Source: Isoetes taiwanensis (Eukaryota; Streptophyta; Lycopodiopsida; Isoetales; Isoetaceae). From it: DNA of 64,000 nt. Shown piece after piece: positions 6,250 through 59,640 of the stretch. The stretch spans positions 1,562,901 to 1,626,900 of the forward strand of contig JAJEKV010000030.1 in the NCBI GenBank assembly GCA_021234155.1, in the 5' to 3' direction. Both the position numbers and the translations under genes were made by a program. Position 1 is the stretch's first letter. The number at the start of each line of letters is the position of its first letter. The notes under the pieces were generated by a model that was not told where the DNA came from, made no database searches, and saw nothing but the letters and a program-made list of their open reading frames with translations.

Positions 6250-7041
6250 TCCATTTCTAGTAATCTATATTAACCCTTTCTATCAGACCACGCGAGTTCT
6301 GGAATATTCCCATGTAAACTGGCTGAGGGCAACCTAATGTGAATCATTACTGCTATTTTAAGTGCCTCCTCCCACGATTTATTTGGCAGTCCTGTAGATT
6401 TTAGCATAGACCTTACAACATACAACAAGATTCGATTCTTTTTCTCAGAGACTCCATTTTGTTGTGGTATAAATTTGAAGGTCAGTTGCCTTTTGATTCC
6501 CCTTGCAATACAAAATTGTTAAACTTACCTGAGAGATATTCTTCTCCTCTGTCTGATCTTATGGACTTGACCTTTTTTCCTGTTTGTCTCTCAACCTCTG
6601 CAATAAATTGCTTTAGAACATCTAAAGCTTGATTCTTCCTGGTTAAACAATAATTTATACACTTCCTAGTGTGATTGTCAATAAAAATGATGAAGTATCG
6701 TTTTTCTAATCTCCCTATAACATTAAGTGGCCCACAAAAATCTGTGTGAATGAGTTTCAAGATTTCTTGAGCTCTGCATTTGGATCTTGTAAATAGGAGT
6801 CTACTGATTTTTCCCAATATACACCCTTCACAAATGTGTTGAATTTTACCATCTTCTTCTTTACAAGATATAATTCCTTTCTTTGCCATGAATTTGACAT
6901 TGTTATAGTGGATGTTTGCCAAGTGTGTGCCAATCTACCATGCCAACTTTCAACATCAGGGATTGTCACAACGTTCATACTATTAAATGTAACTCCATTC
7001 ATCTGAAACAATTTCCCAACATGTTTGGCAACACTCTTCAA
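6250..7041 (-). pseudogene. copia GAG-pre-integrase and integrase remnant
   Basis: Minus-strand 7041-6757 carries the pre-integrase zinc-finger start (PDVESWHGRLAH). In another frame, 6922-6490 carries CEGCILGKISRL, then ILKLIHTDFCGPLNVIG, YFIIFIDNHTRK and a later SIRSDRGEEYLSGKF, i.e. the integrase core with D and D/E residues. About 6480-6250 continues as PQQNGVSEKKNRILLYVVRS and LPNKSWEEALKIAV. The last Asp/Glu-containing part QQNG...E is present. Frames change between these pieces. It would catalyse cDNA insertion in an intact element. Confidence 0.8.
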
Positions 7042-22330: not shown

Positions 22331-23840
22331 CTACAGAGAAAAGGTATTGACTCAAACACTCTAGCAGTGTTGAACGATATCTCGAGCACAAATTCAACTT
22401 AGGCTTTAATGCAGATCATTAAGACCAATTTCGGCTCCTCTATATTGCAATTCTACTTTAACAGGCAGGTCCTTGGCGATTTCAAATTCCAACCGTTGGA
22501 TCTAGACCAATTATTAGGCGTAAATGTTCTAGAATAGCATGATAAACACGCATCAGCGTGTTTATTACGATAAATGGTAGCAGCTATAATAAACAGGCAG
22601 CCGTAGGCAGCAAGCAGGAGGATAGGAATAATTATCCTCAAGATCCTGGAGAATTTATGCATAGACTCACGCATTGGCATAGCTCTTAGTTATTCTGCAC
22701 AGATTTTGTTTCGATTTTTGCTACTTCCAAATTTGATGTTGCGGCGTGCATCCAAGCTAGGGCATGCAAGTAACAACCACATCCAGCTCTCTGCCAAAAA
22801 TAATCATAGTTTGCAAAACAGATGAATAGTCGTAGCTTGAAAAAACAGAGGAATAGGTTGCAAAAACGGTAGCTATAAGTTGCAAAACAGAGGAACAACC
22901 ATAGCTGGTTGCATGACGCTACAATAAGGCCGAATGGATTGAAATCTGCAAGCCTCTAGGTTCCAATTTCGTCTCCTCTAGGTCTTCAAGCTTATTTATT
23001 TATATGCTACTACCATAAGAGTATCTGGCTCCAAAAATAATAATGCACATGTCTACATTATCAAAGGAAATTTTATCCTGTTTAGAATCACAATAACACA
23101 TGTGTGGTAATCATTACCTATATATCCAATGGCATTAACATAACTTTGTGGTGATCTCTACCTATATATATCCAAATAGCATTAACATAAGAACTAGTGT
23201 CGAGGGGCGTCTACTAGAATTGCTTAGTTGGTGCTTTGAAAGAAAAACTCATGAAGTTGAGAAAAGCGAATGAATTGAAGCACTATCTGGTCCATTCTAG
23301 GCATTAGCATTATCTCCATATACATACATATATGTTGCACTATTAACCATCATAGGCTTTCATATCCATCTAAAGCATTGATGCTTGCGAAGATCCAATC
23401 TGAATAGTCATGGTTACGGCCGCCCTATTCCAAATTATATAACAGAAGCTCGATCGTCCTCGTGCTACATCTTTAGCCCATGTTTGTATATTGTCTGAAG
23501 AACTTGGCATCCCAGGACTTGGTCTTCTATTAAAATTCATAACTCTAAGGTGTGGTCGTCCAAACTGTAGGTTCTTCTTGAAGATTTAGTGCAGGCAAGG
23601 CGCTTTTGAATCTTACTTTTTTCTAGTTCTGAGTCTTCAGTGTTACAGATGGCAATATAGAAATGGCACAAAACCGATTCGTTGCAGATTGGCTAATTTT
23701 ATTATGCGATTTGGCCAAGGTAAATCTATTCTTGGAGCAAGCTTAATTGAAATATTCCAATTTTAGGGCATTTTGTTTTCCATTGCATCGTCGGGAAAAA
23801 GGTATTGAATCTGCATTTTAGGGAAAAGGTAATAGCCCTT
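22331..23840. other. No recognisable gene; one perfect small hairpin
   Basis: AT-rich with stops in all frames. A perfect 9-bp stem with 4-nt loop (TAAACACGC-atca-GCGTGTTTA) lies at 22,543-22,564. The region just before 23,850 presumably holds the promoter of the E4 gene. Confidence 0.4.
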
Positions 23841-23850
23841 TTTTTACTTC

Positions 23851-23858
23851 TTATATAC
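23851..23858 (+). promoter_or_regulatory. Possible TATA box of the E4/UFD2-like gene
   Basis: The word TTATATAC lies about 50 bp upstream of the chosen start codon. Two ATGs in another frame (from 23,877) fall between it and that start and open a short overlapping frame, so leaky scanning or a later transcription start would be needed. Inferred from position only. Confidence 0.35.
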
Positions 23859-23905
23859 AAGCCCCAGAAGAAGAATGTCTATGCTACGCATCAGTGAACA
23901 AGAGC

Positions 23906-26788
23906 ATGGCGTCAACAATAGAAGGAGAGATCGACTTGGTGCTGAGGAGGATTTTTCAAGTCACACTTATGCCTTCATCTTTGGAGAATTTGATGTATCT
24001 AGGCAACCTAGCAGCTCAATTGCTGATAGAGAAACGCCCTCTTCTTTTCACCAGCGAGTTGATAGAGAGAGTGTTGGTAGCAAGGATTGACTTTTGCTCC
24101 ACATCTGAAACACGCTTCATGTATGTAGTTGCATGTTATAAACGTGCACTAGAAGAGCAATACAGGTTTCAAGAGGAATTAAATAATGTGAACAATATAA
24201 GGAACACAAAGTACGCCAAGTTGAAGACTGAGATGTTTCAGCTCTTTACCAATGCTAAGGAATTGACATTGCAGTATGCAGGATGTATGCTTCTTCGTAC
24301 AAATTTGTTTTTTCAGTTTGATCAGAAGAAACCTTTGCTGCATTTAGTTTTCAACACAGTAAATTCAGTATTTCAAAATGCATCCATTTTTTCAAAGTTT
24401 CTGAAGGATATGTTCAAGGTGCTTGATGGGAAAGAAGCAAACATGTTGCTGGATGCTATTTTTGAAGGGTTAAGGGACCTTATGTGCACATTTTCCTTCT
24501 CTGACCGATTCCAAAAACCACTTGATGAGTTGGTAATATTAGTTTCATCATGTCCATTGGCTGCGGAGGCGCTTGTACATCACTCAACATGGCATCCAAA
24601 AGGAAACCATGTTAATGGAAGGCATTTAGAAAATTCAACAATTTTAGGTGCATTTTTTCACATCAGTGTCATTCCAGATTCAGATGGTGCTTCAACTTGT
24701 GATCAGGTAACTAGGGATACTATACAGACCACCGTGCATCAGTTATATAATAGTTTACATAAGGTTTTGCTAGCATTGCTGGATAATCCACAGACTCAAG
24801 AGCATGTTTTGGATTTACTGGGTGACATCGTTAAGAAGAATGCATCTCGGACGCACACAAGGGTAGATTTCTCAAAAAATGCAAGCACAGGTATGTTCGT
24901 TAACCTGAGTGCAGTCATGCTCAGGTTGTGCAAAACAAGTTTCAGAAAAAAGGATAGACTTGACCTAACTTATGTATTGATGAATGGACGTGCTGATTTT
25001 ACTAATTTAACTGCCATTCGTGCAACTTCTGAGGAGCGAGCTCACTGGATTGATAAATCACAATGTTCCCAGCTGGCTGGTAAAGAAGTGTTTGCACCGC
25101 AAGGCTTGGAGTATGAGCAAGAGAAGTTGTGTGGATTACAATCAAAAGATTATTCACTTGATTGTGAATGTTTCTTTCTTGCTGCAAGGGTGCTTCATTT
25201 AGGCCTTATTCAAGCACTGTCTGAGCTCCAGAACCTTGAACAGGCATTAGAAATACAGAGGGATTATTTAAATTATCTGAAAATAGAATCAGAAATTGAG
25301 CCCATGAGATATGGATTGAAGGAAATAATTTCGGAAACAGAGGCAACTATAAGGAAAATGGTGCAGGATAAAAATTGCTATGAAGCACAACTAAAAGATA
25401 CAGATTTATTGCAGCAAGGATTAGCCTACTATGACTTGATGCTTCAGCGGCTTGTGTCTCCCTTTGGTGGATTCAGAGACTCCCTTCCCGCAATTTGTCC
25501 TATGCAGTTTGCTTCTATTCCAGAACATTTTATAGAAGATGCAATGGAATTTCTGATATTCGTTCTAGGTGTTCCAAATGCTATGGATGGCATCGTGCTC
25601 AATACTTTTATGAGTTTCATTGTGATGTTTATTTGGAATCCTGAGTACGTCAAGAATCCTTACCTAAGGGCAAAAATGGTTAAAGTTCTTAGCGCTTGGA
25701 TGTTATTAGAAATTAATAATCCAAGTTCAGCAAATTCAATCTTTGGAGAACATCATTTAGCAAGGCACCTTCTTGTTCCCAATCTTCTACGGTTGTATGT
25801 GGACATCGAATGTACAGGAAGTGACAAATACCTCATTAGAAATGAGATTTGTGAATTGCTAAGGTACTTGTGGACAATGCATGTCCATCGCGACACGTGG
25901 AAAGGCTTTGCACTTAGGGAGGAAAGGGGGTTCTATCTGAAATTTTTGAATTTGCTCATTGATGACATTACCTTTACTTTGGATACAAGCTTCCAATATA
26001 TACGAAGTCTAAAAGAAATCGAAGTTCTTCAAATGCTAAAAGAAATTGAACTTCTTCAAACAGAGGAAGGAGAATGGGAACAAATGCAACAAGTTAAACA
26101 AAAAGCAAGGGCTTACATGGAATTTGCTAATAAATGTCTTAGAATGTTACGGTATACTACATTCGAAATAACTTCTTCCTTGCTTCTGCCTGAAATGATA
26201 GGAAAGGTTGCTTCGATGCTCAATTATTTTTTGTTGCAACTCGTTTGCAAGAGTGCAGGGCTCAACATAAATGAACCAAGGGAATGTGGATTCGATTTAC
26301 ATACATTAATAGTTCTGGTTGCACAAGTCTACGTAAATATTGCAAGTGGGGATGAGCAAGGAATCTTTGCAAAGGCCATTTCTACAGATAATATGTCATA
26401 TAGGGATGGATTGATTTCAAAAGCAATTCTGTTGCTTGGAAGCTTATTTTTTGACAAGTTTAGAGATCTTGAAAGAAATGCCATTGACAAGTTTGGAGAT
26501 CTTGAAAGAAAGGTTGCCATCGCGGCGACAGAAGCTCTTGCTGAAGAGGCCATGTTAGGAGAAGTACCAGACGAGTTCCTTGATCCAATACAGTGCACTT
26601 TAATGATAGATCCTGTTATCTTACCATCTTCGAAGGCAAGTGTTGACCGAACAACCATCGAGAGGCACCTTTTAAGTGATCAAACAGATCCCTTCAATCG
26701 TTCATTTCTTGCTTCAAGTATGCTTATTCCTGATATACAACTGAAAGCTAGGATTGATGAGTTCCTTTATAGTCGTCGTTCAATCTAG
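23906..26788 (+). CDS. Ubiquitin conjugation factor E4 (UFD2/PUB1-type U-box ubiquitin ligase), single exon
   Basis: A 960-residue open frame, start MASTIEGEIDLVLRRIFQVT. It matches the plant UFD2/PUB1 family over its whole length: N-terminal helical part, then GMFVNLSAVMLRLC (about residue 330), CECFFLAARVLHLGL (about 420), the core around PEHFIEDAMEFLIF and PEYVKNPYLRAKMVKVL (about 540-590), LLPEMIGKVASMLNYFLLQL (about 760), and a C-terminal U-box from about residue 888 (PDEFLDPIQCTLMIDPVILP...DPFNR). E4 enzymes extend ubiquitin chains on substrates delivered by Cdc48/p97 in nucleus and cytosol. Angiosperm members are somewhat longer (about 1,040 residues) and, as far as known, intron-rich; here no intron interrupts the frame. 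Two short in-frame tandem duplications occur: KEIEVLQML/KEIELLQTE and DKFRDLER/DKFGDLER. The frame is intact, so function is plausible. A retrocopy origin is inferred; no poly(A) tail or flanking duplication was seen. Confidence 0.9.
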   Translation: MASTIEGEIDLVLRRIFQVTLMPSSLENLMYLGNLAAQLLIEKRPLLFTSELIERVLVARIDFCSTSETRFMYVVACYKRALEEQYRFQEELNNVNNIRNTKYAKLKTEMFQLFTNAKELTLQYAGCMLLRTNLFFQFDQKKPLLHLVFNTVNSVFQNASIFSKFLKDMFKVLDGKEANMLLDAIFEGLRDLMCTFSFSDRFQKPLDELVILVSSCPLAAEALVHHSTWHPKGNHVNGRHLENSTILGAFFHISVIPDSDGASTCDQVTRDTIQTTVHQLYNSLHKVLLALLDNPQTQEHVLDLLGDIVKKNASRTHTRVDFSKNASTGMFVNLSAVMLRLCKTSFRKKDRLDLTYVLMNGRADFTNLTAIRATSEERAHWIDKSQCSQLAGKEVFAPQGLEYEQEKLCGLQSKDYSLDCECFFLAARVLHLGLIQALSELQNLEQALEIQRDYLNYLKIESEIEPMRYGLKEIISETEATIRKMVQDKNCYEAQLKDTDLLQQGLAYYDLMLQRLVSPFGGFRDSLPAICPMQFASIPEHFIEDAMEFLIFVLGVPNAMDGIVLNTFMSFIVMFIWNPEYVKNPYLRAKMVKVLSAWMLLEINNPSSANSIFGEHHLARHLLVPNLLRLYVDIECTGSDKYLIRNEICELLRYLWTMHVHRDTWKGFALREERGFYLKFLNLLIDDITFTLDTSFQYIRSLKEIEVLQMLKEIELLQTEEGEWEQMQQVKQKARAYMEFANKCLRMLRYTTFEITSSLLLPEMIGKVASMLNYFLLQLVCKSAGLNINEPRECGFDLHTLIVLVAQVYVNIASGDEQGIFAKAISTDNMSYRDGLISKAILLLGSLFFDKFRDLERNAIDKFGDLERKVAIAATEALAEEAMLGEVPDEFLDPIQCTLMIDPVILPSSKASVDRTTIERHLLSDQTDPFNRSFLASSMLIPDIQLKARIDEFLYSRRSI

Positions 26789-33268: not shown

Positions 33269-33331
33269 CCTCCGCTTTCGATAGTCAAATTGTGTGAATA
33301 TTGTAAACAAACGTGAAAATGTATTGAACAT

Positions 33332-33735
33332 CACTACAAAAAAATTGCCCCCGTTATTTATCGCGTCTATTACGACGCCCGTGACGCCGCTTGAACGCCG
33401 ATGAACGACGCCAAAAGTCGATGAACGACGCCTATAACGACGCCCCGCACGCCGCTTTACGACGCGGACGCTGCCGCCATACTCGCCGCGAACGGCGTCG
33501 TCTTAAAAGCGACGACGTGGCGTCGTTCAACGACGCCATCGCATTACGGCACGCCACGCCGCCGGGCGGCCAGCGTGGCGTCATGAAGCGGGTTGTCGAC
33601 GTGGCGCGCCGCGTGTTTGACGCCGCTTAACGACGCCACGCATTACGCGCGCCCACGCCGCCGGCAACCGCTACAAGCTAAGCGTTACCGTTGTCGACGT
33701 AGGCGATTTAAACAACGCCGTTTAACGACGTTGTT
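33332..33735 (+). repeat. Left terminal and subterminal region of the CACTA element
   Basis: Starts with CACTACAA. From 33,370 onward it carries many copies of ACGACGCC-like words (for example ATGAACGACGCC, TATAACGACGCC, TTAACGACGCC) and their complements (GGCGTCGTT). The GC content contrasts sharply with the AT-rich sequence from 33,740. Confidence 0.8.
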
Positions 33736-34029
33736 TACGTATTAAAAAAAAAAAAAATTTATTTTTTTTAATTTTTTTTTTTATAAATTGAAAAAAATAA
33801 TAATAATACATTTATTATGAATGAAGTTAATACATTTAATTTAAAGCCTATAAAATGAATTTAACCAATAAAAAAATATAAGATTTTAACGCCATTAAAT
33901 GATGTCGCTTAAATATATTAAAAAATACAAAAATAAATGAAGCCCCAATTTTTAGCTAAATACATTAATCAATAAATTAAGCTAAATACATTAATCAATA
34001 CATTAAGCAGATTGAAAATTAAATGCTTA

Positions 34030-34350
34030 CCCGGTACATAGGGAAAAGTTGTTTTGCACAAACAACGATTTGCTAGGAGTGTACATGCAAAACAATAAAT
34101 TCAATGATTAGTAAAATATTAGTATAAATAAACAACTTAAAGGAAAAAAAAATATGGAAAATCAATGGGGGAGGGGTGGTTTCAATGACGCCCCCTTCTT
34201 GGATAACAATTTAACCTAAATAAAGCATTAGTATTTTATTAGCGTATTGAAAAAAATTAAATCCTTACCTGGAAGAGGTGCCAACTTGTTTTGCAAGAAC
34301 AACACATTTTGCTAGGAGTGTACATGCAAAACAAAAAATTCAATGATTAG
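34030..34350. repeat. Internal direct repeat of about 110 bp in the CACTA element
   Basis: The segment TTTGCTAGGAGTGTACATGC followed by AAAACAA and TTCAATGATTAG occurs at about 34,070-34,110 and again at about 34,312-34,350. Each is preceded by a related TTACC...TTGTTTTGCA word. A further GC-rich CGACGCC cluster follows at about 34,880-34,990, ending in poly(T). Confidence 0.6.
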
Positions 34351-35339
34351 AAAGAAATAGTATAAAACAACTAATAAGGAAAAATTTTGAAAGAAGAAGG
34401 GTCTCGCCTATTAACGACGCCTTCTTAGATGGGAAAAAATTAGAAGAAGAATGGAAGAATTCAAGAAGAAAAGGCTAAGAAGAAGAGGAGGAACCCGAAA
34501 ATGGGGAGGAAGAATAATGAAGAAGATGAAGCAAAGAGGAGGATTAAGAGTAAGAATTTGAATAAGAGGAGGAAGAAGTAGTATAAGAGGAGGAAGAATC
34601 AAGAAGAAGATGACAAAGGGAATGGAAGAATATGTATGGAAGAAGGATGCAAGAATGGAAGAAGAAGAATGAAGGTTGAAGGAAGAACAAACAACAAATA
34701 CAAAAAGCCCTAAATCTACCCAAAAACAAGTTTAGATTCAAAAAACGAGTTGGTTGATCCGTGTACATACCTTATGAAGCTTGTCTTACACTTAGAATAG
34801 ACTTCAAAGTAGATCCGCCCGAAAAATCGCCAAAAACGCCTCCTCCATAAGCTTTGCTTGCTCGAAAATAAGCGGCGGGATTGCCGCCTGTTTTCGATTT
34901 AAATCACAGTCGCCGCTTAACGACGCCGTGGACGCCGTTAAACGACGACAAAAACGCCGTTGAACGACGTTTGTAACGACGCTTTTTTTTTTTTTCGACC
35001 AATTTTTTTTTTTTTTTTTTTTTTTTAGTAATGCATGTACACTTGATACATGGGTTTATTTAACATGGATAGGGGTTTATTTGACTTGCTACACCCGTTA
35101 AAGTTATGAAATATACCACCATGAAAATGTTCAATGTTTTGTGGTATATCCGTTGAGCTATGAGGTATATAATACGATGATGATAACTAGTAATACCTTA
35201 CCTGCTACGATAACTAATACCTTACCAATAGCTACGTGTTCGCTTGTTACGACGACATATATATATATTTTTTTAATTTTGTCCCCTGCTATGAGAATTA
35301 ATACCCTACCAACATGCGAAGATGTAGTTTATCTCAACA

Positions 35340-38300
35340 TGCCTGTATGTTGGATGCTAGCTGACAAAAAATCAGAATTTAAGTCCGTACTATGCATTAA
35401 TTACGAATTTACGAATGTCTTGCTACTGCAAAAGCGGGCCTTGACTTCTAACTGCCACAACGGGAGGAGTACAGGTCCAAACTCCATTCCGTCAGTTCCC
35501 CTTGCTTCGCGTTCTCAACTGCATGTGATTGGCCACGTCCCAAGTGCAAAAGACCAAAACTCGGCACCCAAAACGCAAACCCTGCTAGAACCTAGCAACT
35601 CATAGGGTTTACGTTTCGGAGGCTCTATGCTTGTCAGATTTGACTAGGACCTTGGCGCGGTCTTGATCGTGGGACCCTAAAACCACCCGGCGGCTTGCCC
35701 CAAAAGTCTTCTCCCAAAGGCCCCGGCGACGGACGGGCAACTTCCTCTCCCGAATCGGATCCTGTCTCGCCAATGGACTCTAACGTCGACATTGCCCTAG
35801 GGACCAAGTTTTGTGGCCGAAGCCCACCCCTTCTCAAGAAGCGCCAAACTATCTCATGTGCAACACACCGTAGTCAATTGGCCTAGGAGGTGGTCAATCT
35901 TTTAATATATCCTGGCGTAAAGTGTTTCTTTCTTTTGCAAAACCGGACCGTGTAACTTGGTCCCTAGGGTAATTTTGGCATTCCTGGACGATGTGGCGAA
36001 GTCGGATCGGCATTTCGAAACCTCTGCAATGTCCGAACGACAAAACACTTTGGTTTCTACATTATCGCCTCGCTGGACACTTCAGCGGTTTGATATGTTT
36101 TCCTGGACGGATGTTGGATTTTTTGGACCTTCTCGGACCAGGTTCCCGGAACAAAGGATTCAACGGCCGGATACGACGGAACCGAGATCCCGAGTGTGGT
36201 CTTTAGCGTACACCCCCGGGCGCAATACGCCGTGAAAGGCTGCCTCGAAAGCTTTTTGGGGCTCGCCTCCGGGGTTCTGGACTCTCCCTCTAATGAGGAG
36301 GCCTTGCAAGGTCCTCGGCCTTGTTTGACTTGGGCAAGTGTGCCCCGCTTCTGCCCAACAACAAGCCGCCTGCGACCGTTCTAGTGCAAACTATTTGATC
36401 TAAACCTTATCCAAAATTTTTGAAAGTTGGCCTGTATGTTGGCGATGACTTAGGAAGCTAGCGGACAAAAAAAATCAGAATTTAAGTCCGTACTATGCAT
36501 TAATTACGAATTTACGAATGTCTTGCTACTTGCAAAAGCGGCCCTTGACTTCTAACCGCCACAACGGAGGGAGTACAGGTCCAAACTCCATTCCGTCGGT
36601 TCCCTTGCTTCGCGTTCTCAACCGCATGTGATCGGCCACGTCCCAAGTGCAAAAGACCAAAACTTCGGCACCCAAAACGCAAACCCTTCTAGAACCCGCA
36701 ACTCATAGGGTTTACGTTTGGAGGCTCTATCCTTGTCGATTTGACTAGGACCTTGCGCCCGTGTCTTGATGTAGAGGGGTGTTGACGCCTTGAGCACGGA
36801 CCCTAAAAACCACCCGGAAGCAAAATTTGCCCCAAAAATTCCTCTCCCAAAGGCCCCGGCGACGGACGGGCAACTTCCCTCTCCTAACCGTGATCCGCTC
36901 GCCAATGGACTCAGAACGTCGACATTGCCCTACGGACCAAGTTTTGTGGCCAGAAGCCCACCCCTTCTCGAAGAAGCGCCAAACTATCTCATGTGCAACA
37001 CACTCGTAGTCAATTGGCCTAGGAGGTGGTTGCTGAATACTGCAATGTAGGGCGTAAGTGTTTGTTTCTTTTGCAAAACTGACCGTATAACTTGGTCCCT
37101 AGGGTAATTTTGGCATTCCGGACGATGTGGCGAAGTCGGTTCGGCATTTCGGAGCCTCCGCAATGTCCGAACGACAAAACACTTTGGTTTCTACGCTGTC
37201 GCCCGCAGGACGCTTCGCGGTTTGATATGTTCTCCCGGACGGATGTTGGATTTTTTTGGACCTTCTCGGACCAGGTTCCTGGAACAAAGGATTCAACGGT
37301 CGGATACGGGAACCGAGATCCGGGAGTGTGGTCTTTAGCGTACGCCCCCCCGACGGAGCGCTGCCAGGAAAGGCTGCCTCGGGAAGCTTTTTGGGGCTCG
37401 CCTCCTGGGGTTCGGACTCTCCCCTTTAATGAGGAGGCCTTGCAAGGTCCTGGCCTTGTTTGACTTGGGCAAGTGTGCCGCCTCTACGCCTAACAACAAC
37501 AGTCAGCCTGACCGTTCTAGTGCAAACTATTTGATCTAAACCATATCCAAAATTTTTGAAAGTTGGCCTGTATGTTGGCGATGACTTAGGATGCTAGCTG
37601 ACAAAAAATCAGAATTTAAGTCCGTACTATGCATTAATTACGAATTTATGAATGTCTTGCTACACGCAAAAGCGCCTTGACTTCTAACCGCCACAACGGA
37701 GGAGTACAGATCCAAACTCCATTCCGCTGGGTTCCCCTGCTTCAAGCGTTCTCAATCGCATGTGATTGGCCACGTCCCAAGTGCAAAAGACCAAAACTTC
37801 GGCACCCAAAACGCCAAACCTCGCTAGAACCTCGCAACTCATAGGGTTTTACGTTTGGGAGGCTCTATGCTTGTCGATTTGACTAGGACCTTGCGCCATG
37901 TCTTGGCGTAGGGGGGGTGTTGACGCCGCTGAGCACGGACCCTAAAACCACCCCGAAGCAGCTTGCCCCAAAAGTCCTCTCCCAAAGGCCACGGGCGACG
38001 GGACGGGCACTTCGCCTCCCGGAATCGTGTGATCCGCCTCTTCCGATGGACTCGTGAAACGCCGACATTGCCCTAGGGACCAAGTTTTGTGGCCAGAAGC
38101 CCAGCCTTCAAGAAGCGCAAACTATCTCATGTGCAAATACACTCGTAGTCAATTGGCCTAGGAGGTGGGCAAATACCGCAATGTAGGGCATAAGTGTTTC
38201 TTTTTTTGCAAAACGACCGCGGTAACTTGGTCCCTAGGGTAATTTTGGCATTTCGGACGATGTGGCGAAGTCGGATCGGCATTTCGAACCTCCGCAATGT

Positions 38301-41300
38301 CCGAACGACAAAACACTTTGTTTCTACATTGTCGCCAGCGGACGCCAGCGGTTTGATATGTTTTCCCTGACGGATGTTGGATTTTTGGACCTTCTCGGAC
38401 CAGGTTCCCGGAACAAAGGATTCAACGGCCGGATACGGAACCGATCCGGGAGTGTGGTCTTTAGGCGTACACCCCCGGGCGCAGTTTGCCGGAAAGGTCA
38501 GCCTCGGGAAGCTTTTTGGGGCTCGCCTCACGGGGTTCTGGACTCTCCCTCTAATGAGGAGGTCTTGCAAGGTCCCGGCCTTATTTGACTTGGGGCAAGT
38601 GTGCGGCGCCGCCCAACAACAAAGCTGCCCGGACTGTTCTAGTGCAAACTATTTGATCTAAACCTTATCCAAAATTTTTTGAAAGTTGGCACTCAGATGT
38701 TGGCGATGACTTAGGAAGCTAGCGGACAAAAAAAATCAGAATTTAAGTCCGTACTATGCATTAATTACGAATTTACGAATGTCTTGCTACCGCAAAAGCG
38801 CCCTTTGACTTCTAACCGCCACAACGGAGGAGTATTAGGTCCAAACTCCATTCCGCCGGTTCCCTTTGCTTCGCTTCAATCAGACATGTGATCGCCACGC
38901 CCCAAGTGCAAAAAGACCAAAACTTCGCACCCAAAACGCAAAACCCTCGCTAGAACCCGCAACTCATGTTACATTTCGGAGGCTCTATCCTTGTCGATTT
39001 GACTAGGACCTTGCGCCGATGTCTTGATGTAGAGGGGGTGTTGACGCCAGGACCCCAAAACCAAATCCCACGGACCCTAAAACCACCCTGAAGCAAAAAG
39101 TTTTGCCCCAAAATTCCTCTCCAAAGGCCCCGTAGTCATCAATTCGCGACGGACGGGCAACTTCCCCTCTCCGTAACCGCGGATCCGGCTCTCGCGTCAA
39201 TGGACTCAGAACGCCGACATTGCCCTACGGACCAAGTTTTGTGGCCAGGCCCACCCCTTCTCGGAGCGAAGCGCCAAACATCTCATGTGCAACACACTCA
39301 GAGTCAAATTGGCCTAGGAGGTGGTTGGACTTAGAATAATCGCAATGTAGGGCGTAAGTGTTTGTTTCTTTGCAAAACTGACCGTGATAACTTGGTCCCT
39401 AGGGTAATTTTGGCATTCCGGACGATGTGGCGAAGTCGGTTCGGCATTTCGGAGCCTCCGCAATGTCCGAACGACAAAACACTTTGGTTTCTACGCTGTC
39501 GCCCGCAGGACGCTTCGCGGTTTGATATGTTCTCCCGGACGGATGTTGGATTTTTTTGGACCTTCTCGGACCAGGTTCCTGGAACAAAGGATTCAACGGT
39601 CGGATACGGGAACCGAGATCCGGGAGTGTGGTCTTTAGCGACGCCCGACCTGAAGCGCCACCGGAAAGGCTGCCTCGAAGCTTTTTGGGGCTCGCCCCTG
39701 GGTTCTGGACTCTCCCCTTTAATGAGGAGGCCTTGCAAGGTCCTCGCCTTGTTTGACTTGGGCAAGTGTGCCCGCCTTCGGGCCCAACAACAAAGCAGCC
39801 TGACCGTTCTAGTGCAAACTATTTGATCTAAACCATATCCAAAATTTTTGAAAGTTGGCCTGTATGTTGGCGATGACTTAGGATGCTAGCTGACAAAAAA
39901 TCAGAATTTAAGTCCGTACTATGCATTAATTACGAATTTACGAATGTCTTGCTACTGCAAAAGCGCGCCTTGACTTCTAACTGCCACAACGGGAGGAGTA
40001 CAGGTCCAAACTCCATTCCGTCAGTTCCTTGCTTCAAGTTCTCAATCGCATGTGATTGGCCACGTCCCCCAGTGCAAAAGACCAAAACTTCGCACCTCCA
40101 AACGCAAAACCCCGCTAGAACCCTCGCAACTCATAGGGTTTACGTTTCGGAGGCTCTATGCTTGTCAGATTTGACTAGGACCTTGCGCCGTGTCTTGACG
40201 TAGAGGGGGGGTGTTGACGCCTTGAAACTCGGACCCTAAAACCACTTTCAAGCGGCTTGCCCCAAAAGTCCTCTCCCAAAGGCCCCCGCGACGGACGGGC
40301 AACTTCCCTCTCCCGAACCGATCCGCCTCCCGCCAATGGACTCGAACATCGACATTGCCCTAGGGACCAAGTTTTGTGGCCGTAAGCCCACCCCTTCTCG
40401 GGAAGCCAAACTATCTCATGTGCAACACACTGTAGTCAATTGGCCTAGGAGGTGGCACGAATCGCAAATGTAGGGCGTAAGTGTTTCTTTCTTTTGCAAA
40501 ACCGACCGCGGTAACTTGGTCCCTAGGGTAATTTTGGCATTCCGGACGATGTGGCGTTTGGATCGGCATTTGAGCCTCCGCAATGTCCGAAACGACAAAA
40601 CACTTTGGTTTCTACACTGCCAGCTCGCGCCAAGCGGTTTGATATGTTCTCCCGACGGATGTTGGATTTTTTGGACCTTCTCGACCAGTTCCCCGAACAA
40701 AGGATTCAACTACCGGATACGGAACCGAGATCCGGAGTGTGGTCTTTAGCGTGCACCCCCCGGAGCAAGATCTTTGCCGCCAGAAAGGCTGCCTCGAAGC
40801 TTTTGGGGCTCGCCTCCCGGGTTCTGGACTCTCCCTCTAATGAGGAGGCCTTGCAAGGTCCTCGACCTTGTTTGACTTGGGCAAGTGTGCTGCCCCTCGG
40901 TGCCCAACAACAGTCAGCCCTGGACCGCTCTAGTGCAAACTATTTGATCTAAACCTTATCCAAAATTTTTGAAAGTTGGCCTATATGTTGGCGATATTTA
41001 GGAAGCTAGCCGACAAAAATCAGAATTTAATTCCGTACTATGCATTAATTACGAATTCTTAATGTCTCCTACTTGCAAAAGCGGCCCTTGACTTCTAACC
41101 GCCACAACGGGAGGAGTACAGGTCCAAACTCCATTCCCCAGTTCCCTTGCTTCGCGTTCTCAACTGCATGTGATCGGCCACGCCCCAAGTGCAAAAGACT
41201 AAAACTTCGGCACCCAAAACGCAAAACCCCGCTAGAACCCGCAACTCATGGGGTTTACGCTTTGAGGCTCTATCCTTGTCGGTTTGACTAGGACCTTTGC

Positions 41301-42765
41301 GCCGCGTCTTGATGTAGAGGGGGTGTTGACGCCGAGCAGCACGGACCCTAAAACCACCCGGAAGCAGCTTGCCTCAAAATTCCTCTCCGGAAGGCCTCGG
41401 CGACGGACGGCAACTTCCCTCCCGAACAGGATCCGTCTCTCGCCAATGGACTCGAACGCCGACATTGCCCTAGGGACCAAGTTTTGTGGCGAAGCCCACC
41501 CCTTCTCGAAGCGCCAAACTATCTCATGTGCAACACACTTTCGTAGTCAATTGGCCTAGAGGTGGTCAAATACCGCAATGTAGGCGTGGAGTGTTTGTTT
41601 CTTTTGCAAACCGACCGTATAACTTGGTCCCTAGGGTAATTTTGGCATTCCTAACGATGTGGCGGTCGGTTCGGCATTTCGAAGTTCCCACAATGTCCGA
41701 ACGACAAAACACTTTGGTTTCTACTGCCGCCGGGGCGACGCAGCGGTTTGATATGTTCTCCTGACGGATGTTGGATTTTTTTTTGACCTTCTCGACCAGG
41801 TTCTTGGAACAAAGGATTCAATGGTCTGATACGGGAACCAAGATCCTGAGTGTGGTCTTTAGCGTCGCCCCACGGGCTACCGCCAGAAAGGCTGCCTCGG
41901 GGAAGCTTTTGGGGCTCGCCTCCCGGGTTCTGACTCTCCCTCTAATGAGGAGGCCTTGCAAGGTCCCGGCCTTGTTTGACTTGGGCAAGTGTGCCGCCTC
42001 TGCCCAACAACAAAGCTGCCCTACCGTTCTAGTGCAAACTATTTGATCTAAACCATATCCAAAATTTTTGAAAGTTGGCCCTCAGATGTTGGCGATGACT
42101 TAGGATGCTAGCCGACAAAAAATCAGAATTTAAGTCTGTACTATGCATTAATTACGAATTTACGAATGTCTTGCACGCAAAAGCGGCCTTGACTTCTAAC
42201 CGCCACAACGGGAGGAGTACAGTCCAAACTCCATTCCGTCGCCTCCCTGCTTCGCGTTCTCAATCGCATGTGATCGCCACGCCCCAAGTGCAAAAGACCA
42301 AAATTCGGCACCCAAAAACGCAAACCCTCGCTAGAACCTCGCAACTCATAGGGGTTTACGCTTTGAGGCTCTATCCTTGTCGATTCGGACTAGGACCTTT
42401 AGCGCCATGTCTTGACGTAGGGGGTGTTGACGCCGAAAGCACGGACCCTAAAACCACCCGGGCAGGCTTTGCCCCAAAAGTCCTCTCCCGAAGGCCCTGG
42501 CGACGGACGGGCAATTTTCCCTCTCCGGAACCGTGATTCGGCTCTGCCAATGGACTCAGAACGTCGACATTGCCCTAGGGACCAAGTTTTGTGGCCAGAA
42601 GGCCACCCCTTCTCGAAGAAGCGCCAAACTATCTCATGTGCAACACACTCGTAGTCAATTGGCCTAGGAGGTGGCTGTTGAATACTGCAATGTAGGGCGT
42701 AAGTGTGTCGTTTTTTTGCAAAACTGACCGTGTAACTTAGTCCATAGGGTAATTTTGGCATTCCA
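35340..42765. repeat. Tandem array of ~1.13-kb units in an A/B dimeric higher-order arrangement
   Basis: The anchor CTTGGTCCCTAGGGTAATTT (last copy slightly mutated) recurs at 35,957, 37,091, 38,227, 39,391, 40,515, 41,623 and 42,737, spacing 1,108-1,164 bp. Variants alternate. Units starting near 35,355, 37,590, 39,880 and 42,105 carry GGATGCTAGC before GACAAAAAATCAG. Those near 36,455, 38,710 and 41,005 carry GGAAGCTAGC. Independently, GGATCGGCATTT (35.96, 38.23, 40.5 kb) alternates with GGTTCGGCATTT (37.1, 39.4, 41.6 kb), and AAACCATATCC with AAACCTTATCC. Open frames in the units are short, differ between copies and are broken by small indels, so no gene is called. Confidence 0.9.
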
Positions 42766-42769
42766 AACG

Positions 42770-43347
42770 ATAAGCAACGTCGAGATTAAATTTTTTTTTT
42801 TTTTTTTTTTTTTTCCCCAAAAAAAAAAAAAAAAATAGTGACGTCGTTAAACGACGTTGCTTACGTGGCGCTCTGCTGACAATAGCGTGGCGCGGACGAT
42901 CTGGGCCATCGCCGGCAAAACTGGCCGCCACGCCGGATATTCCGGGCATGGCAGACACTTTGGCGCGTGCCGGGCATGTCGCCAAACCACGAAGGCCGAC
43001 CGTCACGCCGATTTTTAGTCGCCGCTCAACGACGTCGTCATGTCGACGGGCGAGAACGGTGGCGTGCCCGGCCGGCATGTCGGCAAGCCACGCGGCCGGA
43101 TGTGCCACGCCGGCTTCGTGAGGCGCCGTTCAACGGCGTTCACCGGCGATGTTTTGACACGCAGCCTACCAGCTTGGCGGCGTACCATGCCACGCAGCCA
43201 ATCCGACACCGCCATCCCCGAAAAACGTCGTTGAGCGGCGCCGAAGCGACGTTGTCGCCGTTGAACGACGATGTCGTTGATGTTCGGCGGCGACCCGCCG
43301 TTCTTCGACGCCGCGGCGTCGTTGGGCGTCGACTATCCCTTGTAGTG
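42770..43347 (-). repeat. Right subterminal region and terminus of the CACTA element
   Basis: After a poly(T)/poly(A) junction (about 42,790-42,835) the sequence becomes GC-rich. It has GTCGTTAAACGACG, GCCGCTCAACGACG, GTTGAACGACG and related words in both orientations, ending with the TTGTAGTG terminus at 43,347. Confidence 0.8.
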
Positions 43348-43387
43348 CATTTTGTAATGAATATACTTGTATATTGAGTTTTACGAT

Positions 43388-44829: not shown

Positions 44830-45316
44830 TTAGTAGAGGAAAGCGAAAGCTTCTCTCTTGCATGCGCCTAAGTTCACATAGACGGACAATTGAGGTGGAA
44901 CAAGAGCAGGATGTGCCACGTGAATTGCGTTTTTGTCCTTGCTGCCTAGATGCTCAAGTAGAAGATGAACGACATGCTCTTCTCTATTGCTCAGCTTTTG
45001 ACTACCTAAGAGCACAACATGATATCAGTTGCGAGTCTTTTCACGAGCTTTTGAACTTACCAGTTATAAAATTTGGTAGGTATCTTCAAGATTATGACAG
45101 GTCAGGGAAAGAGCTACTGTATCTTTATGACATGGCAAAAAATCTTGATGTGTTAGTTTTTCCTTTTTCAGTTGATCAAAAGCATGCATGTACCTTTTTC
45201 TCGTCTATGGACCTGAAGGTCTAACAGGCGTGATTCAATACAATACAATACAATACAATACAATACAATACAATACAATACAATACAATACAATACAATA
45301 CAATACAATACAATAA
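44830..45316 (+). mobile_element. LINE 3' fragment with C-terminal finger and (CAATA)16 tail
   Basis: Open frame 44,862-45,224 reads MRLSSHRRTIEVEQEQDVPR then ELRFCPCCLDAQVEDERHAL LYC. This is the LINE polyprotein C-terminal finger (L-R-x-S-S-H...R-x-C-P-x-C...V-E-D-E-x-H-x-L-x-x-C) and is well preserved. It continues to the stop at 45,224. A GACCT-GA-AGGTC hairpin (about 45,210-45,221) overlaps the stop region, and the element ends in 16 perfect CAATA repeats (45,236-45,315). The upstream RT is missing, so it is a 5'-truncated insertion of a family different from that at 9.1-13.5 kb. Confidence 0.7.
45236..45315 (+). repeat. (CAATA)16 microsatellite
   Basis: Sixteen uninterrupted copies of CAATA directly at the 3' end of the LINE fragment; the most regular microsatellite in the window. 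Confidence 0.95.
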
Positions 45317-58249: not shown

Positions 58250-58569
58250 TACAATATTAACATGGTAATTCTTAGACATGCAAAACACGTTTGTTAAACT
58301 TTGGCATAATAATATGGAAGTAAACAAGGTGCTGCCACACTTTGGATAGCTTGATTTGCAATCCAATGCTTAAGGGATAACTGCCATTCAGATTTGAAAA
58401 ATGATTATTCTAAAGGAGTTGCAGAGTCGAAATAATCTCGTGGAAGATGTGGCATTGAGCTGGCTAGTCATTTTGATGATTTGAAAAAGCAGTTAAGGCA
58501 AAAAAAACAGATAAGGCACGAGCTTGTTGAAAAAAAAAAAGCCTTGAACTGAAAGGAAAAGAAGTCCAA

Positions 58570-59640
58570 CATGACCTTGTTTTTGCCACCTCAGCATATA
58601 TTTGCCACATCATCTTGCTCTTGCCACTTCATCTTGCCACTTCATCATGCAATTGCCACATCACCTTGTTTTACCAATTCATCTTGCAACTAACCTCAAA
58701 AGTATGCTTGTGAACCCTGTTAAGGATTTATCCATCTCATCTTGTAGTTCTTGCCACATCACCTTGTACTTATTGCCACATGACCTTGTTTTTGCCACCT
58801 CAGCATGTATTTGCCATATCATCTTGCTCTTCCCACTTCATCTTGGCATCATGTAATTGCCACATCATCATATTTTACCAATTCGTCTTACAACTAAACT
58901 CAAAAGTTTGCTTGTGAAATCTATTAAGGGTTTATCCACCTCATCTTGTAGTTTTTGCCACATCACCTTGTACTTCTTGTCACATGATCTTGTTTTTGCC
59001 ACCTCAGCATATATTTACCACATCATCTTCCTCTTGCCACTTCATCTTGCTACTTCATCGTGTAATTGCCACATCACCTTGTTTTACCAATTCATCTTTG
59101 CGACTAGCCTCAAAAGTTTGCTTGTGAAATCTGTTAAGGGTTTATCCACCTCACCTTGTAGTTTTTGCTACATCACCTTGTACTTCTTGCCAAATGACCT
59201 TGTTTTTACCACCTCAGCATGTATTTGCCACATATTATTCTTGCCACTTCATTATGTAATTGCCACTTCATTATGTAATTGCCACATCACCTTGTTTTAC
59301 CAATTCATCTTGCAATTAATCTCAAAAGTTCGCTTGTGAAATGTGTTAAGGGTTTATCCATCTCACCTTGTAGTTTTTGCCACAACACCTTGTACTTTTT
59401 GCCACATGACTTTGTTTTGCCACCTCAGCATATATTTTCCATATCATCTTGCCACTTCATCATGTAATTGCCACATCACCTTATTTTACCAATTCATCTT
59501 GCAACTAACCCTAAAAAGTCTTGCTTTACCAATCCATCTTGCAACTAACCTCAAAAATTTGCTTGTGAAATTTGTTAAAATCCACCTCACCTTATAGTTT
59601 TGCCACACCAGCTTGGACTTCTTGCCACATATCCTTGTCT
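58570..59640 (+). repeat. About five copies of a 210-bp satellite unit
   Basis: The anchor CCACCTCAGCAT recurs at about 58,587, 58,796, 59,000, 59,210 and 59,420 (period 204-210 bp). Each unit also contains CACATCACCTTG, ACCAATTCATCTTGCAACTA and GGTTTATCCA(T/C)CTCA(T/C)CTTG. Within the unit a shorter motif (TTGCCAC(A/T)TCA(C/T)CTTG) is repeated. Open frames in it are a by-product. Confidence 0.85.

Follow-up and report, generated by a model that had tools for sequence, protein, structure and literature searches.

CACTA (En/Spm) transposons are bounded by terminal inverted repeats that start with CACTA, are flanked by a 3-bp target-site duplication (TSD) and carry short subterminal motifs that are repeated in both orientations; Transposase_21 is encoded by their autonomous members only. 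The closest described relatives of the locus reported here link such elements, or other DNA transposons, with tandemly repeated DNA. A Jozin-like CACTA element of Chenopodium quinoa holds a captured array of satellite DNA; the element measures 16.5 kb, has a transposase domain and carries 32.5 copies of a 171-bp unit towards its 3' end, and the repeat is dispersed along the chromosomes (PMC8978399). CficCl-61-40, also known from Chenopodium, is a satellite that arose from a fragment of CACTA tnp2 (PMC7320549), and the Drosophila virilis foldback transposon Tetris is reported to have contributed building blocks to a satellite (PMC4079207). No higher-order repeat within a CACTA element was found in the open-licence literature searched.

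The window analysed here, a stretch of 64,000 nucleotides from an Isoetes taiwanensis assembly of 1.66 Gb in 1,110 contigs, contains a further CACTA element with a tandem array, with a longer unit and no transposase found. As in C. quinoa (PMC8978399), the array is long and internal and the element is present in several copies, but here it is filled by 1.12-kb units and no transposase was found, as against 171-bp units and a transposase domain, and the alternation of unit types that one copy displays is a further difference. The initial annotation had called such an array unusual for a CACTA element, a judgement weakened by that published case; the only feature out of the ordinary is the alternation, shallow and present in one of the copies examined. 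CficCl-61-40 resembles the present family in that CACTA elements are linked with tandem arrays, but its ~40-bp monomer derives from transposase sequence and is described as the most abundant satellite of those genomes (PMC7320549). With Tetris the family has in common the link between a DNA transposon and tandem repeats, whereas Tetris is of the foldback type, resides in an animal and is claimed to have given rise to a satellite, and the present family consists of arrays mostly inside CACTA flanks (PMC4079207). We consider it likely, with a probability of about 0.8, that the window holds one copy of a dispersed non-autonomous CACTA family whose body is the array of 1.12-kb units, and that this copy has a local history of two-unit duplication.

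The window element starts with CACTACAA at 33332 and ends with TTGTAGTG; the starting sequence recurs inverted at 43340-43347, and the perfect inverted match between the two ends is 8 bp long. A CAT/CAT duplication surrounds the element, and perfect 3-bp TSDs were found at six of six two-ended elements, this one included. The motif AACGACG occurs in both orientations at both ends, six times forward and once in reverse in the left 419 bp and three times each way in the right 511 bp, so that 13 occurrences fall within the 930 bp of the ends versus five in the 9,086 bp between them; one more lies in the window outside the element. The proposal that the chief cargo of this CACTA element is a tandem array is upheld. 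Six open reading frames (ORFs) from the element region, four in the array, one at its left edge (35102-35605) and one at the right end, gave no Pfam match, and no PF02992 match lay inside the element among the matches listed; as Transposase_21 was not found in it, the element is read as non-autonomous. The coordinates of its parts are collected in the table. The left internal segment also contains an imperfect two-copy repeat of ~180 bp (33971-34148 and 34205-34384), whose copies start ~235 bp apart, as judged from secondary matches in other copies of the element and by eye. Elsewhere in the window, a 988-aa open frame with Ufd2P_core and U-box domains (23822-26788) is, by its domain content, likely a ubiquitin E4 ligase gene, a perfect CAATA microsatellite of 16 copies lies at 45236-45315, and a 204-bp tandem repeat of 4.2 copies with many TTGCCAC words occupies 58569-59452.

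Table. Coordinates, in window positions, of the CACTA element and of the parts of its array
Feature	Position	Strand	Basis
CACTA element, non-autonomous, 10,016 bp	33332..43347	+	Ends, TSD, no Pfam match in scanned ORFs
TSD, left copy, CAT	33329..33331	.	Read from sequence
TSD, right copy, CAT	43348..43350	.	Read from sequence
Left terminal/subterminal region with repeated AACGACG	33332..33750	+	7 AACGACG, both strands; similar segment in other copies
Left internal segment, conserved	33751..35351	+	At least its end adjoins 16 of 17 other array loci
Array unit 1, type A	35352..36452	+	Anchors, tree
Array unit 2, type B	36453..37588	+	Anchors, tree
Array unit 3, type A	37589..38713	+	Anchors, tree
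Inverted repeat in unit 3	38056..38254	.	31-bp arms 38056-38086 / 38224-38254, 137 bp apart
Array unit 4, type B	38714..39880	+	Anchors, tree
Array unit 5, type A	39881..41000	+	Anchors, tree
Array unit 6, type B	41001..42102	+	Anchors, tree
Array unit 7, partial, ~670 bp, mixed A/B	42103..42771	+	4 A + 4 B at 8 alternating sites
Right subterminal/terminal region, ending in TTGTAGTG	42772..43347	+	Beside 16 of 17 other array loci

The tandem array comprises six full units of 1,101-1,167 bp and a partial unit of ~670 bp. It extends from 35352 to about 42771 (42772 in a second comparison), so that its end lies six bases beyond the 42765 given in the initial annotation. The anchor GGA[AT]GCTAGC recurs at 35352, 36453, 37589, 38714, 39881, 41001 and 42103; the count of seven anchors stood, whereas their spacing, first put at 1,108-1,164 bp, has a slightly wider range and was measured as 1101, 1136, 1125, 1167, 1120 and 1102 bp. 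Pairwise identity among the full units ranges from 84.7 to 91.1%. The arms of the inverted repeat in unit 3 are 87% complementary, and the stretch at 38050-38260, taken from the sole unit folded, folded better than 200 shuffles (z -3.13); comparable inverted repeats appear as minus-strand self-matches in many units of other loci and, within the window, in units 2, 3, 4 and 6. The idea that the unit has a coding origin was rejected, since none of the five ORFs scanned from arrays (154-189 aa; four in the window, one at another locus, L015) had a Pfam match.

All three pairs of diagnostic sites proposed to distinguish two monomer types do alternate along the window array, and a tree of the six full units gives, as predicted, two alternating groups, {1,3,5} and {2,4,6}, in 296 of 300 bootstraps. 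When the six units were aligned together with 81 other units, 13 of 18 evenly split sites alternated, and when they were aligned alone 12 of 22 did so; the comparison, 38 overlapping six-unit stretches from nine other arrays, had a mean of 1.8 alternating sites and a maximum of 6. Chance was rejected as the source of the alternation on the strength of these site counts and the bootstraps. The six full units thus present alternating monomer classes within one array, and in this they resemble alpha-satellite, with its distinguishable monomers in repeating order. The depth of the pattern is another matter. Same-parity identity exceeds different-parity identity by 1.74 points, which is the top value of the ten possible 3:3 splits and has a permutation p of 0.10, the floor of the test because only ten such splits exist, and identity at lag 2 is 88.1% vs 87.0% at lag 1 (+1.1 points). 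This falls short of same-type identities clearly above opposite-type ones, and the putative higher-order copies are not much more alike than the monomers within a copy, the gap being those 1.74 points; copies of the alpha-satellite higher-order repeat are nearly identical, whereas same-type units in the window differ by 9-13%. Unit 7 carries the A variant at four and the B variant at four of eight alternating sites, and over the first 690 bp, with this unit included, the alternating split ranks second of 35. The A-B-A-B-A-B-A order first put forward holds for the six full units, the partial seventh being mixed. Taken together, the identity, site, tree and seventh-unit tests show that the six full units do alternate, though to a small depth, and that the seventh fits the pattern only in part.

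The genome holds similarly built elements at numerous sites. A search for an exact 29-bp core of the unit gave 1,227 occurrences (reversed control, 0), and because only 125 of 139 fetched full units, drawn from the best matches and long arrays, hold this core, the true number of units is greater than 1,227. The left segment, or at least its end, was found at 16 of 17 other array loci (L006 being without it), and the right segment likewise at 16 of 17, the right side of L013 lying outside the fetched piece. A sample in genome order covered 20 of the 24 clusters among the matches listed, the other four having been fetched whole as long arrays. Five of its right-hand pieces reached a boundary, all with the right segment (weak in L042), and 15 were still array; of its left-hand pieces, nine showed the left segment, nine were array throughout and two were without the segment, one stopping inside a unit (L055) and one matching neither array nor segment (L063). 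A CACTA flank was present at 14 of the 16 boundaries reached in this sample. For the initial annotation's conjecture that transposition could seed satellite arrays elsewhere the boundaries speak both ways: most of those reached lie inside the same CACTA family, but some arrays stop at contig ends or are without the flank on one side. Arrays usually start at unit position 1 (exceptions are L007 at 8 and L011 at 38) and end at 669-687, and loci with both flanks hold 2.5 to 12.5 units.

A deletion that joins unit positions 1089 and 204 was found at seven places on six contigs: at five loci (L003, L004, L006, L008 and L009) it coincides with the final junction between units, and the other two places are the pieces L041 and L048. 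This deletion is a subfamily marker, and its presence in several elements indicates that arrays were inherited or copied as wholes. Mean unit identity is 90.2% within loci vs 89.6% between them, and the best partner of a unit lay in its own array for 24 of 87 units with the long array C568 joined, or 21 with C568 cut in two; local homogenisation of arrays is accordingly weak at most. In a tree of the 87 units no array out of 17 forms a group of its own, although the 11 units of C568 come close (a group of 14), and the A and the B units of the window are not separate groups either, the smallest groups that contain them holding 45 and 59 units. At CG and CHG sites 13% of cells depart from the majority base vs 5% elsewhere, and about half of the CG/CHG divergence consists of transitions, as would be expected of methylated repeats. 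Conservation is uneven along the unit, some parts being more conserved than others.

No transposase source with matching ends was found among the candidates scored (best 150 of 2312 and best 40 of 550), and comparison by eye revealed no element holding both PF02992 and matching ends among the matches listed. Spans of 17-20 kb between matching ends (C1044, C1042 and C568) were considered as possible autonomous copies and not upheld on inspection: that of C568 is array for the most part, that of C1042 includes ~10 kb without array matches, and that of C1044 has two right ends with LINE-like open frames between them, as seen by eye.

Some arrays are nested or reach considerable length. One element (L012, G000:C908:23276000-23285500, with L071) has landed within a unit that belongs to a different array, at unit position 443-445; CCA flanks it on either side, as does array sequence. 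In L009 array units lie directly beside the right end and no array was seen on the other side, and in L014 they lie beyond the left segment, whose outermost bases are unmatched. At least five of the 17 contigs among the matches listed end inside an array (C10, C46, C58, C148 and C164), which suggests that the arrays were too long or too alike for the assembler; the assembly may understate the true length of arrays at contig ends. In C148 ~16.5 units extend to the contig end, and the 4.9 kb read on the opposite side contain no right segment. The array of C58 is interrupted (L026, at about position 6846) by sequence ending in TTGTAGTG plus one base, probably another CACTA-type insertion. These cases raise the speculative and rather unlikely prospect of a satellite incubator, in which elements carry arrays, nest in each other and, together with two-unit duplications, build compound arrays that break assemblies.

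The strong alternation in the six full window units could mean that the AB pair is the unit by which the whole family expands, a conserved dimeric higher-order repeat, and two other arrays (L003 and L008) do have A-type 5' halves past the first unit as well, without strict alternation. The other copies sampled speak against this. Across 14 other stretches with at least four full units, from 13 arrays with C568 cut in two, the parity difference ran from -1.33 to +0.52 points and lag-2 identity exceeded lag-1 identity by at most 0.7 points (in L013); the excess did not go beyond 0.2 points in the four long arrays, which have 16, 12, 15 and 9 full units. Identity declines gradually with distance in C148 and C164, with no period of two, and rises slightly at lag 8 in C58. 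Outside the window the diagnostic sites split into separate linked blocks, sites 1-5 (r 0.35-0.73) and sites 6-8 (r 0.40-0.97), and sites 9-13 show weak correlation at most with any other site (largest absolute r 0.36). The narrow margin of lag 2 over lag 1 in the window itself also counts against a dimer, and the order A-B-A-B-A-B was not seen among the other arrays sampled. For the sampled arrays the parity, lag, site-linkage and alternating-site tests reject a conserved dimer unit; this reading is largely refuted for the copies sampled, and we regard it as very improbable. Of the two-unit expansion that the initial annotation proposed, the two alternating groups of the window remain, whereas its standing as a general property is lost, as it is absent from the other sampled arrays. 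Because no other examined array shows alternation, the pattern is a local imprint of two-unit duplication and no family-wide higher-order repeat.

Other readings concern the origin, use and reality of the array. A CACTA element might have taken up an older free satellite and subsequently dispersed it, the course of events argued for C. quinoa (PMC8978399); the 1.1-kb unit is unlike the element ends, and some arrays reach contig ends or have no CACTA flank on one side. Yet the flanks at 14 of 16 boundaries in the genome-order sample and the usual start and end positions, which suggest a single origin inside the element, leave capture doubtful. The inverted repeat that recurs among units, the one folded example of which beats its shuffles, and the greater conservation of some unit parts would suit an array kept for the element's benefit, as a hairpin or small-RNA source or an array of binding sites. 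Unit number varies widely between loci, however, the units decay, and AACGACG is concentrated at the ends and not in the array, so that on sequence grounds such a benefit seems improbable; no function of the array for host or element is evident. That the array order is an artefact of assembly could be suspected from the contigs that end inside such arrays, but units that differ by 9-15% should be placed by long reads, the element ends and TSD are intact and similar arrays recur at other loci, and we give this explanation almost no credence.

We therefore return to a dispersed non-autonomous CACTA family with the array as its body, for which common outer segments, usual array start and end positions, variable unit number and 3-bp TSDs were observed. 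The element would move whole, with transposase supplied in trans by another CACTA element, and arrays would in this way spread ready-made. Later changes in copy number would come about by unequal exchange or by slippage, for the most part in steps other than two units. In the window copy the duplicated segment would have been a two-unit block, headed by a unit with the variant that arrays usually have at their 5' edge. With the window left out, an A-like 5' half was present in 11 of 12 first full units vs 6 of 69 other units (p 1e-8), or in 12 of 13 vs 5 of 68 when L014_02 is moved by hand to the first units, where it belongs because the preceding piece lies beyond the left segment; arrays with an incomplete first unit (L004, L006, L011 and C1042) contribute no first unit. 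There are exceptions to the rule: L016_01 is not A-like, C164_01 is mixed, and in C148 A-like 5' halves occur at the downstream end. On the simplest view, a block made up of the edge unit and the next unit was duplicated in the window copy, probably in two or more rounds, and the A-B-A-B-A-B order would persist under later independent decay, which would be faster at CG and CHG sites. The tree of the window units pairs unit 1 with 5 and unit 2 with 4, and since simple repeated duplication of one dimer would not produce these pairs, they suggest later exchange too. This pairing, the mixed seventh unit, the lack of separate A and B groups for the window units in the 87-unit tree, the first-unit exceptions and the fact that no transposase source was found among the candidates scored are points against the explanation.

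In this family one array is present at numerous separate sites of insertion, and since the arrays seem to have moved as wholes, comparison of the copies can show how they grow, lose units and decay. It also lets the question of whether transposon-borne arrays become free satellites be tested in a gap-free genome. Within the family, the alternation in the window is a modest, local record of one duplication history.
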